Shown here one piece after another: positions 49,996-59,374 of a stretch of 60,719 bases of DNA. Source of the stretch: Bacteroidia bacterium (GTDB lineage: Bacteria > Bacteroidota > Bacteroidia > Flavobacteriales_D > Crocinitomicaceae). Where the stretch lies: positions 1 to 60,719 of the forward strand of contig JAUICI010000002.1 of the NCBI GenBank assembly GCA_030427935.1, written 5' to 3'. The notes below the pieces were generated by a model that searched no databases, was not told the DNA's origin, and saw nothing but the letters and a program-made list of their open reading frames with translations. Numbering within the stretch: the stretch's first letter is position 1; the number at the start of each line of letters is the position of its first letter. The position numbers and the translations under genes are program-made.

Positions 49996-50306
49996 AATTC
50001 TCCGAGATTCTCCGTGTAACAGCTTCTGCGCCCTCTGCGAAAACTCTGCGTTTTACTCGACGAAGCTTAGCGAAGTAGAGACTCTGCGTTTAGAAAAGAA
50101 AACGTTTGTAGAATGACCGCCCTTCGACTGATTCTCGACTTCACTTCGTTGCGCTCGAATTGGCTCCATCGGCCGCCATGCGCCTACGCTGAAGCTTCAG
50201 CGCAAGAGTAAGGCTTGCCGACGGCACGGCAGGAACCGTAAATAAAGGGGTTTAGTAAGGTCACAAATCCCAATTTGAGATAACAAATAAGAATTCAATT
50301 GTGACC
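49996..50306. repeat. dispersed composite repeat, copy A (82-bp core 50152-50233)
   Basis: The first copy of a three-member family. CTCTGCG-rich flank, then the invariant 82-bp GC-rich core with a 16-bp palindrome (50187-50202, CGCTGAAGCTTCAGCG), then a 48-nt tail (50259-50306) bounded by GGTCACAA and TTGTGACC. It fills most of 49933-50332, between convergent genes; nothing else is recognised there except an AT-rich tract. Confidence 0.85.
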
Positions 50307-53217: not shown

Positions 53218-53646
53218 ATTAAATTAAAAATTAAAAATTAAGAATGAAAAATTTTGGATGAAGGATGGATTTGGTGAATGGTTGAATGGTGAATGGTCCT
53301 ACTTCGCTAAGCTTCGTAGGATAAATGGAGAGGTGGAGAGGAAATAGGTGATAGGTAATATGTAATAGGTAATAGGTGGATTTTATCACTTGGCTGTCCG
53401 AACTCTGCGAAAACTCTGCTTCTCTGCGTTTAAAAAAGAAAACGTTTTTAGAATTTCCGCCCTTCGACTTATTCTCGGCTCCACTGCGTTGCGCTCGAAT
53501 TGGCTCCATCGGCCGCCATGCGCCTACGCTGAAGCTTCAGCGCAAGAGTAAGGCTTGCCGACGGCACGGCAGGGACCGTAGGTTTGAGGTTCTCTTGAGG
53601 TCGCAAATTCCAATCAGAGTACACAAACAAGATATCAATTGCGGCC
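53218..53646. repeat. dispersed composite repeat, copy B (82-bp core 53492-53573)
   Basis: Most of the 534-base gap between two minus-strand genes. A low-complexity tract and a GGTAATA-type stretch (53340-53380) precede a CTCTGCG-rich flank, the invariant 82-bp core, and a 48-nt tail (53599-53646) with ends GGTCGCAA and TTGCGGCC. The upstream part also holds cctacttcgctaagcttcgtagg, shared with copy C and, inverted in part, with copy A. Confidence 0.85.
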
Positions 53647-55206: not shown

Positions 55207-57843
55207 ATGAAAAAGACAACCTTTATACTACTCTTTATATTCTATTCACTGAATAGTATTTTGGCTACACCGTCATTCAAAATTTCCAATGAAAATATTG
55301 TTGGGATTTATTATGGAAAGATACGTGCAGGAGGATCAATCAGTGGACAGGATCTTGCTCTGAGATTTTACCCGGACGGAGAAGTTATTGCCGTCGTTAT
55401 TCCCAGGAGACCGACTTATATGGAAAATTTTGCTCGTAGTTTTGATCGAGCCAAATCTGGAAGGTATTCATCTGGAAAGTACAAGCTTAAAGATGGGAAT
55501 ATCACCTTTGAGTTGGATTTGATTGTTGAGAAAAAGAAGTTCAAATACAGATTCAACGGGAAGTTATCTTTTACGAAGACGATTAAAGTGATGTTGTTCA
55601 CTGTTTACAATACCTCAAATAGCATGGGGTATCGTTTGTATTCGGAGCGTGTTTGGACTCCGACGGAAGGCGCAGTCGGGGATGATCATAAGCCTGAAAT
55701 TGTTATTGAAGAAAAGGACGATGCCCCTTCCATTATTCAAAATAAGATCAAGATAAATGAGGAAATCAAATCCTTGGATGAAAATCTGAAAAAGGATGAT
55801 ATCAAGGCTGCTACCAATAACATGAACAATATTGGTTTGTCCCATTTCAGCAATAAAGATTATGAAGAGGCGATCAATAGCTTTAATGATGCTTTGGTTC
55901 TGAGTGAAATGAATGGGGATAAAAAGGCTGCAGCCGATATTCGGAATAACTTAGGGGTTTCACATGAGCGGATGAATCAGAAAAAAGCAGCCTTGGAGAA
56001 CTTTAAACAGGCTGTTAGAGATTATCAGGAGTTGGGCGACAATGCAAGTGCGGCAAAGGTGATGTTTCAGATATCCTTATTGGAAAAGAACCATTTGGAT
56101 AAAGAAGCTGAACAGAAAGCATTAGAAGATCTGGCTTTGCTGGAAGAAGAGATTAAAAATCAGAAAGAATTAAGTGCGACTTATAATAATCTGGCCATCA
56201 ATCTGATGAAACAAAGTAAACCGGAAGATGCAAAAATGATTCTTGAGAAGGCGAGAAAAATTGATCAATCTAAAAACCTAAAAGCATTTGAAGCGATTAC
56301 AATTAATAACCAAGGAAATATTCAGCTGGAACAAGGGAATGTAAAGGAGGCAATTACTTCCTATCAAAAAGCCTTGGAGATCAAGAAAGAGCTGAATGAT
56401 AAAGGGTCTCAGGCCATCACCTTTCACAATTTAGGGAATGCTTTATATGCTCTAGGAGAATTAAAAAAGGCTGAAGAAAATTTAAGAAAATCCTTATTGT
56501 TGGCAAAAGAATCGAAAGAGGCCAAAACCATGAATGCGAATTACCGGGCTTTAGCTAATTTACTTGCTGATGCCAATTCTTGTATGGATCCCTTAGAGAA
56601 TTATAAGAACTATATCTCCATGCGATTTGCAGTAATTGAATCCGAGGTGATCAAACCTTTATATGAGGAGAAAGCCAAGTATATCGAATCCGATTTTTCG
56701 GCAGATGGTTCACTTACCGATGGGATTGGAAAAATTGGAATTGGAAATGAGGATTTGATTTCAATAAACATGCTTCAAGAAGATCTTCGTCAAGCCCAAA
56801 AAGCCGCACAGCAAGAAATTAAGGAAGCGCAGAATCAGATTATGATTCAAAATAAGGATATTGCTTTATTGGAAAGTCAGAAAACAGCTGAACAAGAAAA
56901 GACTAAGACCTTAACCTGGATGGTTATTGGAGCAGCAGTTTCAGGATTGCTTGTTTTGTCCTTATTAGGAATGGCAGTAAGATCCCGAAATCGAACCAAG
57001 AAGGATAAACAAAAGATTGAAGAGCAGAAGGAAGTTATTGAGGAAAAGAATAAAGAATTTACGGATTCGGTGACTTATGCCAGTAGACTACAAACTGCCA
57101 TTTTACCTCCGATAAGTGTACTAAACACCCAGTTGAAAGAGTATTTCGTGATCTACAAACCAAAAGACATTGTTGCTGGAGACTTTTATTGGACTGAAAC
57201 CGTTGGCGACTATACCTATGTAGCCGCAGCAGACTGCACCGGACATGGAGTGCCCGGAGCCATGGTGTCTGTAGTTTGTTCGAACTCCTTATTTAGAGCG
57301 GTGAACGAATTTGGATTAAGAGATACTGGAGCCATTCTGGACAAAACGCGAGAACTCGTCATCCAGACCTTCGAAAAATCAGTAGAGGAAGTAAAAGACG
57401 GAATGGACATCGCGCTAATTCGATTGGAAAAAGGAACAAATAAAATTCAGTTTACCGGAGCGCATAATTCACTTCTGATTGCCAGAGAAAAGAATGGTCA
57501 AACCCTCAGTGAAAACGTAATTTTCAACGAAGAAAAATTTCTAGAAGAATTCAAAGCGGACAAGCAACCAGTTGGACAATACGCTTACGCTAAAGACTTT
57601 ACTACAAATAATATCGACGTTCGAGAAGGAGATCAACTCTTCCTTTTCTCCGACGGTTATGCCGACCAATTTGGAGGCGAAAAAGGGAAGAAAATGAAAG
57701 TCCGCTACCTCAAAGAATTATTCCTAGAAGTATCCACTTTACCTGCAGATCAGCAGAAAGATAAACTCGAACAATACTTCCTCAAATGGAAAGGCGACCA
57801 CGAGCAGGTAGATGACGTCTGTGTGATTGGACTGCGGGTTTAG
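55207..57843 (+). CDS. secreted/membrane TPR sensor with SpoIIE-type PP2C phosphatase
   Basis: An 878-residue sensor. Signal peptide (about 1-21), a beta-rich N-terminal domain (about 25-155), a TPR array of about seven or eight units (about 200-480), coiled coils, one membrane helix (about 572-594), a second coiled coil and a SpoIIE/PP2C phosphatase (about 615-878) with AADCTGHGVPGAMVSV, DGMDIALIRL, FSDGYADQFGG and QVDDVCVIGLRV. It is the second protein in the window with this output; the helix before the phosphatase (KNKEFTDSVTYASRLQTAILP) closely matches the one at 23734 (KNKEITDSINYAKRIQDTIIP). It should sense a periplasmic signal and dephosphorylate a regulator. Confidence 0.87.
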   Translation: MKKTTFILLFIFYSLNSILATPSFKISNENIVGIYYGKIRAGGSISGQDLALRFYPDGEVIAVVIPRRPTYMENFARSFDRAKSGRYSSGKYKLKDGNITFELDLIVEKKKFKYRFNGKLSFTKTIKVMLFTVYNTSNSMGYRLYSERVWTPTEGAVGDDHKPEIVIEEKDDAPSIIQNKIKINEEIKSLDENLKKDDIKAATNNMNNIGLSHFSNKDYEEAINSFNDALVLSEMNGDKKAAADIRNNLGVSHERMNQKKAALENFKQAVRDYQELGDNASAAKVMFQISLLEKNHLDKEAEQKALEDLALLEEEIKNQKELSATYNNLAINLMKQSKPEDAKMILEKARKIDQSKNLKAFEAITINNQGNIQLEQGNVKEAITSYQKALEIKKELNDKGSQAITFHNLGNALYALGELKKAEENLRKSLLLAKESKEAKTMNANYRALANLLADANSCMDPLENYKNYISMRFAVIESEVIKPLYEEKAKYIESDFSADGSLTDGIGKIGIGNEDLISINMLQEDLRQAQKAAQQEIKEAQNQIMIQNKDIALLESQKTAEQEKTKTLTWMVIGAAVSGLLVLSLLGMAVRSRNRTKKDKQKIEEQKEVIEEKNKEFTDSVTYASRLQTAILPPISVLNTQLKEYFVIYKPKDIVAGDFYWTETVGDYTYVAAADCTGHGVPGAMVSVVCSNSLFRAVNEFGLRDTGAILDKTRELVIQTFEKSVEEVKDGMDIALIRLEKGTNKIQFTGAHNSLLIAREKNGQTLSENVIFNEEKFLEEFKADKQPVGQYAYAKDFTTNNIDVREGDQLFLFSDGYADQFGGEKGKKMKVRYLKELFLEVSTLPADQQKDKLEQYFLKWKGDHEQVDDVCVIGLRV

Positions 57844-57919
57844 CGTTTCCAAGGACACTAGAAAGTTTAAATCCCAACATTCATCGTTGGGGTCACTATC
57901 CTGACATTTATCGTCCGCG

Positions 57920-57955
57920 GTAGATGATGTTTGTGTGATTGGGTTGCGCGTCTAG
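57920..57955 (+). pseudogene. remnant copy of the 3' end of the SpoIIE gene
   Basis: Seventy-seven bases after the true stop, the codons for VDDVCVIGLRV and a TAG stop recur. The 36 bases differ from the real 3' end (57808-57843) at six positions, all silent, and similarity stops just before and a few bases after. It looks like the tail of a vanished paralogue. No start or body remains. Confidence 0.75.
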
Positions 57956-57963
57956 TGTTTGCC

Positions 57964-58364
57964 GTGAATGGTTGAATGGTCCTACTTCGCTAAGCTTCGT
58001 AGGATAAATGGAGGGGTGGAGGAAATAGGAAATAGGTAATAGGTAATAGGTAATAGGAATTAGGTGATAGGTGAGTTCTCCGTGAATCTCTGTGCATCCT
58101 CCGTGTAACAGCCTCTGCGCTCTCTGCGAAACCTCTGCATCTCTGCGTTTAAAAAATAAAACGTTTTTAGAAAGACCGCCCTTCGACTTATTCTCGACTC
58201 CACTTCGTTTCGCTCGAATTGGCTCCATCGGCCGCCATGCGCCTACGCTGAAGCTTCAGCGCAAGAGTAAGGCTTGCCGACGGCACGGCAGGGACCGTTT
58301 AATGGGAGGTGCTATAGGCCGCAAAATCCAATCAGAAATAACAAACGAGAATTTTATTGCGGCC
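57964..58364. repeat. dispersed composite repeat, copy C (82-bp core 58211-58292)
   Basis: Fills most of the 556-base gap between two convergent genes. From left: a segment shared with copy B (cctacttcgctaagcttcgtagg), GGTAATA-type microsatellite (58035-58057), CTCTGCG-rich flank, the invariant core, and a 48-nt tail (58317-58364) with perfect ends GGCCGCAA and TTGCGGCC. Confidence 0.85.
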
Positions 58365-58399
58365 ATTCCTTTTAATCTCATCCCAATTTTGAATTAACC

Positions 58400-59374
58400 T
58401 CACTCTTCCCAAATCAACTTTTCATACTTTTTGGGTTGGATATTCTTTACATTATTCTGTCCCAAAGCGCGGATTTCTCGGAAGAGTTCAACGAAGGGGT
58501 GGACGGTTAATTCTACTTTGACGTAACCGTTCTTTTCTTCGCTTAGTTTTTGAGAATGATGAATGGGCATGGTTCTGAGGTAGTCAATGTTTTTTATGGT
58601 TGTGCCGTCTTTGACTTCGAAACTAAAGTTTACGGGTTCCTCTTGAGAGAAGATAATTCCGACTGAGTGTTTCCAGAAAGTTTGTGGATCAAATTCCTCT
58701 CTTTTCAGAAAGCTGTCTTCCTCTTTTTCTTCCACGACTTTGAGTCTGTCTAATGCATAGGTTCTCCAGGCTTCCAAATCTTTATTCCAAGTAAACAAAT
58801 ACCATCGATGTCCATATTCTTTTAAATAATGTGGGTGAACTGTCGTATGAATAGGTTCTCCTCCAAATTGCTGGTATTCGATTTCCAATTCTCTGTTTTG
58901 GTGAATACTCCAGAAAAGATCTTCAAAATGCTCGATGCCTCCATATTGAACAGGTGCGCCTTCGAAACCAATGATTTCTTTCTTTTTGTGATGAGGCTTT
59001 ATCTTTTTGATCAATAATTCCAATTCACTGAAAAATGGAAGGTCTCTGTATTTACCCGCCGCAGAGGATAAATTCTCCAAAATTTCCATGTCCTGATCCA
59101 TCAGGCCTTGTTTCGGTAATAATGAAAATTTCTCTTTGTAATAATAGAGTCCTTGAGGGGTAGACATCAACGGCGCATCTAGGATTTCCCTCAAGAATTT
59201 TTTGTCCTCATTAAAGTTGCGAATTGAATAATTCCCATTATTGCTTCCATCACTTTCTTCAACACATCTTCTGATTTCGATATGCGTGTATTTCCCCCCT
59301 CGACGAAGTAAATTATGGATTTCTAAAACTCGAATTCCTTGTTTGGATAGAAAGGGTTTGAAATATTCAATCAT
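58400..59374 (-). CDS. WYL-domain transcriptional regulator
   Basis: A 324-residue cytosolic protein. The N-terminal ~95 residues resemble a winged-helix region (KQGIRVLEIHNLLRRGGKYTHIEIRRCVEE, NEDKKFLREI). A WYL domain occupies about 150-235, with the signature HRWYLFTWN and LDRLKVV, followed by a WCX-like C-terminal extension. WYL proteins bind nucleic-acid or nucleotide ligands and often control defence or DNA-repair genes. Its ATG overlaps the upstream LRR-like gene stop by four bases, making it the last gene of a three-gene operon. Confidence 0.85.
   Translation of the reverse strand: MIEYFKPFLSKQGIRVLEIHNLLRRGGKYTHIEIRRCVEESDGSNNGNYSIRNFNEDKKFLREILDAPLMSTPQGLYYYKEKFSLLPKQGLMDQDMEILENLSSAAGKYRDLPFFSELELLIKKIKPHHKKKEIIGFEGAPVQYGGIEHFEDLFWSIHQNRELEIEYQQFGGEPIHTTVHPHYLKEYGHRWYLFTWNKDLEAWRTYALDRLKVVEEKEEDSFLKREEFDPQTFWKHSVGIIFSQEEPVNFSFEVKDGTTIKNIDYLRTMPIHHSQKLSEEKNGYVKVELTVHPFVELFREIRALGQNNVKNIQPKKYEKLIWEE

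Follow-up and report, generated by a model that had tools for sequence, protein, structure and literature searches.

A repeated SpoIIE gene end in a Crocinitomicaceae genome is probably a former end displaced by a short inserted unit

In the tyrT/rtT repeats of Escherichia coli, fragments of a tRNA gene end are repeated beside the tRNA gene. In integrons, the newest cassette lies next to a fixed gene, and attC sites provide a distal hairpin with conserved arms and a variable loop. Insertion into the end of a gene is known from SCC elements, which occupy the end of rlmH. A comparable case is prophage e14 of E. coli: according to excerpts of the published account, it inserts in the 3' part of icd, supplies a gene end of 163 bp and leaves the old end displaced beyond itself (PMC6379469). 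For Bacteroidetes, excerpts of another study describe a subclass 2.6 of Y1 transposases with atypical hairpins (PMC6006769).

The window, that is, the whole stretch of 60,719 nucleotides analysed here, is contig C267 of a draft genome of 3.9 Mb in 289 contigs (G000). It carries on the forward strand an open reading frame for 878 amino acids (55207..57843) with a C-terminal SpoIIE domain; PF07228 matches at 57208–57840 with 59.3 bits against a cut-off of 25, which places the product among the SpoIIE phosphatases. The middle part of the protein looks TPR-like from its sequence. The three named database matches of the gene (38–43%) come from MAGs labelled Cytophagaceae, Flavobacteriales, and Chlorobiota. 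The current gene end (57808..57843, forward strand) reads VDDVCVIGLRV-stop. As reported in a preliminary description of this DNA, these last 12 codons occur again at 57920..57955 on the same strand, with 76 bases between the copies, the first base of the second being the 77th beyond the stop. The direct repeat as a whole (57807–57848 and 57919–57960) spans 42 nt with 83% identity and a spacing of 112. The six nucleotide differences between the two ends fall in six codons and change no residue, so that codon comparison bears out the earlier statement that all of them are silent; the chance of this is about 1e-4 (peptide intact in 1.15e-4 of 200,000 trials with six substitutions placed at random in 36 bases). 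The second tail reached a position-specific score of 20.9, the highest among 2160 shuffles being 18.8.

Between the two ends lies a 3' spacer (57844..57919, forward strand). It resembles the sequence that flanks another SpoIIE gene, the paralogue on G000 contig C240, on its 3' side: bases 57840–57915 are 84% identical to that flank (E 1.5e-17). The spacer contains a hairpin, CCCAAC-ATTCATC-GTTGGG (57873..57891, forward strand), recognizable in the sequence and in the predicted fold, and a truncated copy of a palindrome termed X, TCCTGACATTTATCGTC followed by CGC (57899..57918, forward strand). The truncated stem adjoining the second tail is unexceptional, 26% of control positions being equally good, and the complementarity of the spacer to its own tail is not significant (p 0.34). 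Over 23 displaced tails from five genomes, described below, the adjoining stem ranks within the best 5% of control positions in 10, the median being 6%. We consider it likely that the 36 bases at 57920..57955 are a former SpoIIE 3' end, displaced by a short unit that inserted into the last codons; most simply, they are this gene's own former end. The current end would then have been brought in with the unit.

About ten bases beyond the second tail begins a dispersed intergenic repeat, 'copy C' (57965..58330). Similar stretches occur elsewhere in G000, namely at window positions 53283–53612 (81%), on contig C144 (83%), and, for a part, at window positions 50082–50239 (95%); the family is assembled from several shorter dispersed pieces, with stretches 81–95% alike. 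No tail stands at the left flank of the copies at 53283 or on C144, the two flanks examined. The idea that the tail copy is part of this repeat was rejected for these reasons, and the deletion junction formerly placed near copy C finds no footing here either.

The SpoIIE gene ends of G000, which has 43 PF07228 matches corresponding to about 40 genes, are strongly conserved (xDDVCVIGxRV). The tail pattern with up to two mismatches matched 32 places in the whole draft; of the 30 loci read, all but the window copy were ends of SpoIIE frames. For scoring, we used 54 ends: 29 of these 32 matches in G000 (two matches without a locus and the window's displaced copy excluded), where SpoIIE ends outnumber those scored given the 43 domain matches, and 25 of 28 in one congener, G001 (two displaced copies and one non-gene end excluded). 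A displaced tail was present within 300 nt at 10 of the 54 ends (3/29 in G000 and 7/25 in G001), with scores of 20.6–32.6 compared with maxima of 18.8 for shuffles and 7.7 for the reverse strand.

Elsewhere the arrangement comprises the gene end, a 3' spacer that usually terminates in a hairpin, and a second copy of the last 7–12 codons. The first displaced tail lies 47–97 nt from the gene stop, and stacks reach up to 189 nt. On contig C220 of G000, gene end and spacer are followed by intact palindrome X (TCCTGACATTTATCGTCAGG) and then VCVIGVRV-stop, while the gene on C69 is followed by two additional tails, each preceded by the identical string TTTATCCTGAGCCCTGTCGAAGGG. The second tails on C273 and C240 are decayed and individually non-significant (p 0.04 and 0.11). 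Some of the seven SpoIIE ends with a second tail in G001 have two stacked copies. Across 240 genomes of the family, the two-tail pattern (zero mismatches, gaps of 41–101 nt) matched 18 places in five genomes of 3 of the 24 genera, and the reversed pattern matched none; the matches outside G000 and G001 belong to three genomes of two other genera. The count is a lower bound, because the pattern permits no mismatch and no other gap lengths.

A repeat-pair scan of 845 kb, a non-random sample made up of the window and 40 stretches picked from G000 and G001, returned 58 pairs counting both strands. The plus-strand pairs listed at ends of open reading frames belonged to two SpoIIE genes of G001 and one Fic-like gene, and the window pair was recovered too. 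On the basis of this non-random sample, tail repeats were rejected as a general feature of gene ends. The gene that we take from its sequence to be Fic-like, on G001 contig C115 (L182 7760–7960), ends in ...YILKGLAKGS-stop, and its tail DNA, AAGGGCTCACTAAGGGCTCA, is present three times more after the stop.

Comparison of 23 displaced tails from five genomes (197 codons) with their gene ends revealed 110 nucleotide differences, which alter the amino acid in 22 codons, for the most part exchanging V, I, and L for one another; simulation gave 69.6 changed codons on average and a minimum of 56 in 5000 runs. This summed figure is biased, because 9 of the 23 tails come from loci detected with a pattern favouring coding motifs; the window pair was chosen otherwise. 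Left out of the set were tails that were decayed or found later: C240, C273, L111, the last remnant at C115b, G108 C78, a third tail at G108 C58, and those of the second unit type (L231, L233, L235, and L238). The stop codon is lost in the second tail at C159b, and as many as nine bases distinguish the two tails of a single locus. The earlier claim that the window copy was coding while it diverged is thus supported, and each displaced tail was evidently, to judge by its codons, a working gene end before displacement.

The units fall into families. Type 1 is represented by nine copies in G001, with a spacer ...GATACGCAAAGTTTACCCTGAGTC, a variable loop, and GACCTCAGGG, followed by the displaced tail at a constant codon base. 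The first 36 nt of the spacer are 90% alike (7 of 9 copies) and the last 14 nt, the right arm, 92% (9/9), while the loop is only 42% alike; in the copy at C105, both sides of one stem pair are changed. The right junction is CTCAGGG^[C/T]G in 9/9 copies (CTCAGGG^CGT or TGT). Gene-side tails of type 1 are 76% alike, displaced tails 62%, and tails within a locus 76%, a weaker contrast than in unit B.

Unit B, of 77 nt, consists of replacement end, spacer, and hairpin. Six near full-length copies, 92–100% alike, are present in genome G108: five at the ends of SpoIIE frames and one within an array behind another unit. The first part of the unit occurs at three further places. Unit B was found neither in the congeners G110, G109, and G004 nor in G104 and G105, of another genus. 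Its right junction, GCGGGG^TCTG, is constant in 6/6 copies within a base or two, and right junctions differ from one unit family to another. At the unit B loci, gene-side tails are 96% alike, displaced tails 81%, and the two tails of one locus 66%, which indicates that the gene-side tail travels with spacer and hairpin; the contrast between gene-side and displaced tails was reached by 1 of 64 label swaps. The displaced tails of unit B were also examined for a conversion gradient, with a comparison set from another genus: their first half is so uniform that 1 of 5000 random native sets equalled it, and the drop from first to second half is unremarkable, 1373 of 5000 such sets reaching it. A second unit type in G108 (CGCCTAAGAACACCACCAAGC...AGCATG; L231, L233, L235, and L238) is joined to displaced SpoIIE tails at GTCTG.

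Two pairs of loci in G001 and G000 appear as filled and unfilled states. The SpoIIE genes on G001 C170 (filled) and G000 C24 (unfilled) are reciprocal best matches in their bodies and have the downstream gene in common. The gene of the second array on G001 C115 (filled) has its best body match on G000 C245 (unfilled), and the common downstream gene is 86.8% identical over 417 amino acids. The reciprocal best match of the window gene lies on G001 C126 (68.6% over 510 amino acids; one congener compared). No second tail was found downstream of this orthologue (L114), and none of the matches listed was a downstream gene common to the two loci. In seven comparisons with the orthologue's tail, the displaced tail was closer in three and the current tail in three; the window gave a tie, both ends matching at 24 of 33 positions. 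Beyond the displaced tails, the sequences are, by eye, too diverged for alignment between species.

We infer that the unit moved, rather than that the tail was duplicated in place, and the manner of movement may be pictured as follows. A unit of replacement gene end, 3' spacer, and hairpin would be joined to the old end on its right side, where the hairpin stands or close to it; newer units would be stacked ahead of older ones behind SpoIIE paralogues, and spread among the paralogues would proceed through their conserved 3' ends. As the route, we prefer ectopic gene conversion by short homology, to which we give about an even chance. A unit between two direct tail copies could use these copies as homology arms to any paralogue with one tail, and conversion would carry tail, spacer, and hairpin while leaving the displaced ends diverse. 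Such arms would also hold the right junction constant for each unit family and spare the reading frame. No special enzyme would be necessary on this route, and the founding event would be a separate matter; since some spacers are inverted tail copies, that event was probably linked to hairpins or template switching.

Both short-homology gene conversion and a hairpin-directed recombinase fit as the agent. A dedicated, site-specific recombinase would use the hairpin as a single-strand recognition structure, as with integron attC sites or IS200/IS605-type ends, and the conserved tail as its target. We regard this as somewhat unlikely, although the constancy of the right junction within a family and the conserved arms around a hypervariable loop in type 1 agree with it, and bases outside the type-1 stem are predicted to pair with the target site. 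The variation of junctions between unit families speaks against a recombinase, as it does against our preferred reading. Also consistent with a recombinase is the sharing of hairpin X by SpoIIE ends and tRNA fragments. Of the 16 places with palindrome X, 10 adjoin SpoIIE or tRNA genes, and intact copies are known from SpoIIE ends other than the window's as well as from tRNA loci. Two copies resemble ordinary terminators followed by a T run, and no constant short target duplication of the kind that marks MITEs was seen. In G000, the palindrome adjoins the genes for tRNA-Arg(tcg), tRNA-Arg(acg), and tRNA-Gly(gcc), and in G001 that for tRNA-Arg(acg); fragments of tRNA 5' ends are repeated directly beside it, as tandem units at two loci.

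A broader reading, which we put forward tentatively, is that hairpin-tipped micro-cassettes of about 70–125 nt, a class not yet described, land on conserved gene ends, replacing them so that insertion is silent, and move by hairpin-directed single-strand recombination. On this tentative reading, they would enter protein genes of one large paralogous family in the final codons and tRNA genes at the 5' end.

In the units preceding tRNA-Arg and tRNA-Gly genes (L087, L089, L083, and L079 on G000 contigs C92, C127, and C11; L100 on G001 C109), a fragment of the tRNA 5' end is combined with the palindrome CCCTGACGATRAATGTCAGGG and an AT-rich hairpin. The AT-rich hairpin is inserted at a single place within the fragment's D-arm portion. 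At L081 (G000 C225:1640), the palindrome lies within an apparent broken tRNA-Arg remnant, with ATCCTGC before it and GCCGAGGTC after it.

Genes for Y1 transposases, a candidate source of such a recombinase, were detected in 8 of 10 genomes, including 5/5 of the unit-bearing ones, but also in three of five genomes that lack a match to the two-tail pattern (G004, G010, and G105). The hairpins beside these genes are unlike the unit hairpins. A scan of 13 Y1 stretches from seven genomes, which covered X-like palindromes, tails, and type-1 arms but not the unit B hairpin, found one X-like palindrome (L252, both strands). The Y1 transposase as agent was therefore rejected: it is present with and without units, its neighbouring hairpins are different, and no link was found. 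Most of the Y1 genes at L241, L244, L245, and L247–L251 encode YIH[MQN]NP and NH[VIL]H motifs and have flanking inverted repeats of their own (e.g., CCGCGCGAATCCTTCGCGTGG); by these motifs they resemble Bacteroidetes subclass 2.6, as excerpts of its description present it (PMC6006769). At L196 18930–19250 (G001 C126), repeats of about 85 nt with GCGCAGGATTTGGGAATCC form an array that resembles hairpins next to the L245 Y1 gene.

Template switching at a hairpin (direct-inverted-direct copying) could have duplicated the tail in place, without movement between paralogues. Several observations agree with this: 7 of 20 unit genes, versus 1 of 42 others, have a spacer that is an inverted tail copy at p<0.05; the order tail, inverted copy, hairpin, tail is found on G000 C220 and C273, with an inverted copy in G110 as well; and at C220 and in G110, tail and spacer form one long hairpin in the predicted fold. 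In-place duplication leaves unexplained, however, the near-identical units at six G108 loci and the spacer common to the window gene and C240, and both the up to nine differences between tails of one locus and the low within-locus likeness in unit B, set against that of its gene-side tails, speak against it. We therefore judge it improbable as the full explanation.

More doubtful still is a functional 3'-UTR element, e.g., a switch in which the spacer pairs with either the coding tail or the second tail. Purely silent differences would suit such an element, and spacers that are inverted tails permit alternative pairings, but only a minority of the paralogues (10/54) have a second tail, which is decayed at C240, C273, and, as the last remnant, at C115b, and has lost its stop at C159b. 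The preliminary description had named a conserved RNA element as an alternative; no Rfam family matched 57500–58450, even at E<=1.

The least probable explanation, and a very improbable one, is that of the preliminary description, a tandem SpoIIE paralogue downstream whose body was deleted except for the last 12 codons: tandem SpoIIE genes do occur in these genomes (e.g., G000 C52, C262, and C240) and the tail copy was clearly coding in the past, but five genomes have lone tails following SpoIIE genes, the longest of the 23 examined measuring 12 codons, so that deletions would have to stop at the same codons, the uniform length of 7–12 codons argues against independent deletions, which would leave remnants of all lengths, and the window's orthologue in the one congener compared shows no second tail.

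Among known systems, a displaced gene end invites comparison with several. REP/REPIN elements with TnpA-REP (RAYT) are likewise short hairpin elements at gene ends, and the compared genomes possess Y1 genes with motifs of subclass 2.6 as excerpts of its description give them. The differences are that no GT[AG]G foot was read by eye 5' of hairpins X, type 1, or unit B, and that the hairpins flanking the Y1 genes are of another kind; moreover, we know of no REPs that carry gene ends. The tyrT/rtT repeats resemble the units at the tRNA-Arg and tRNA-Gly loci in that tandem units start with a piece of the neighbouring gene; here, however, tRNA 5' ends are involved, and the same hairpin stands at protein-gene ends too. 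With integron cassettes, the SpoIIE units share the order with the newest next to the gene, the distal hairpin, the conserved arms, and the variable loop, but a SpoIIE unit carries no gene and its target is a coding end. A GTTRRRY core was not found at type-1 or unit-B junctions, and one tRNA fragment, GTTGAGC, fits it by chance.

The anatomy is that of e14 in icd, since the SpoIIE units also supply a gene end and leave the displaced old end on the far side. They differ from e14 in measuring roughly 70–125 nt, in occurring at many paralogues, and in being sometimes stacked, and they carry no integrase, for the distances from stop to tail and the length of the stacks leave no room for its gene. 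A literature search returned no description of the two-tail arrangement or of gene-less units of such size serving a paralogue family. That the arrangement recurs after sister genes of related bacteria points to a mode of gene-end exchange that has drawn little notice. Every replacement would leave a readable, coding-conserved fossil, and lone tail copies that would otherwise pass as pseudogenes would find an explanation. The loci may also serve as a natural test bed for short homology and hairpins as drivers of bacterial gene conversion. Within about 40 paralogues, gene ends would have been swapped repeatedly by units of a size far below that of the integrating elements that they resemble.
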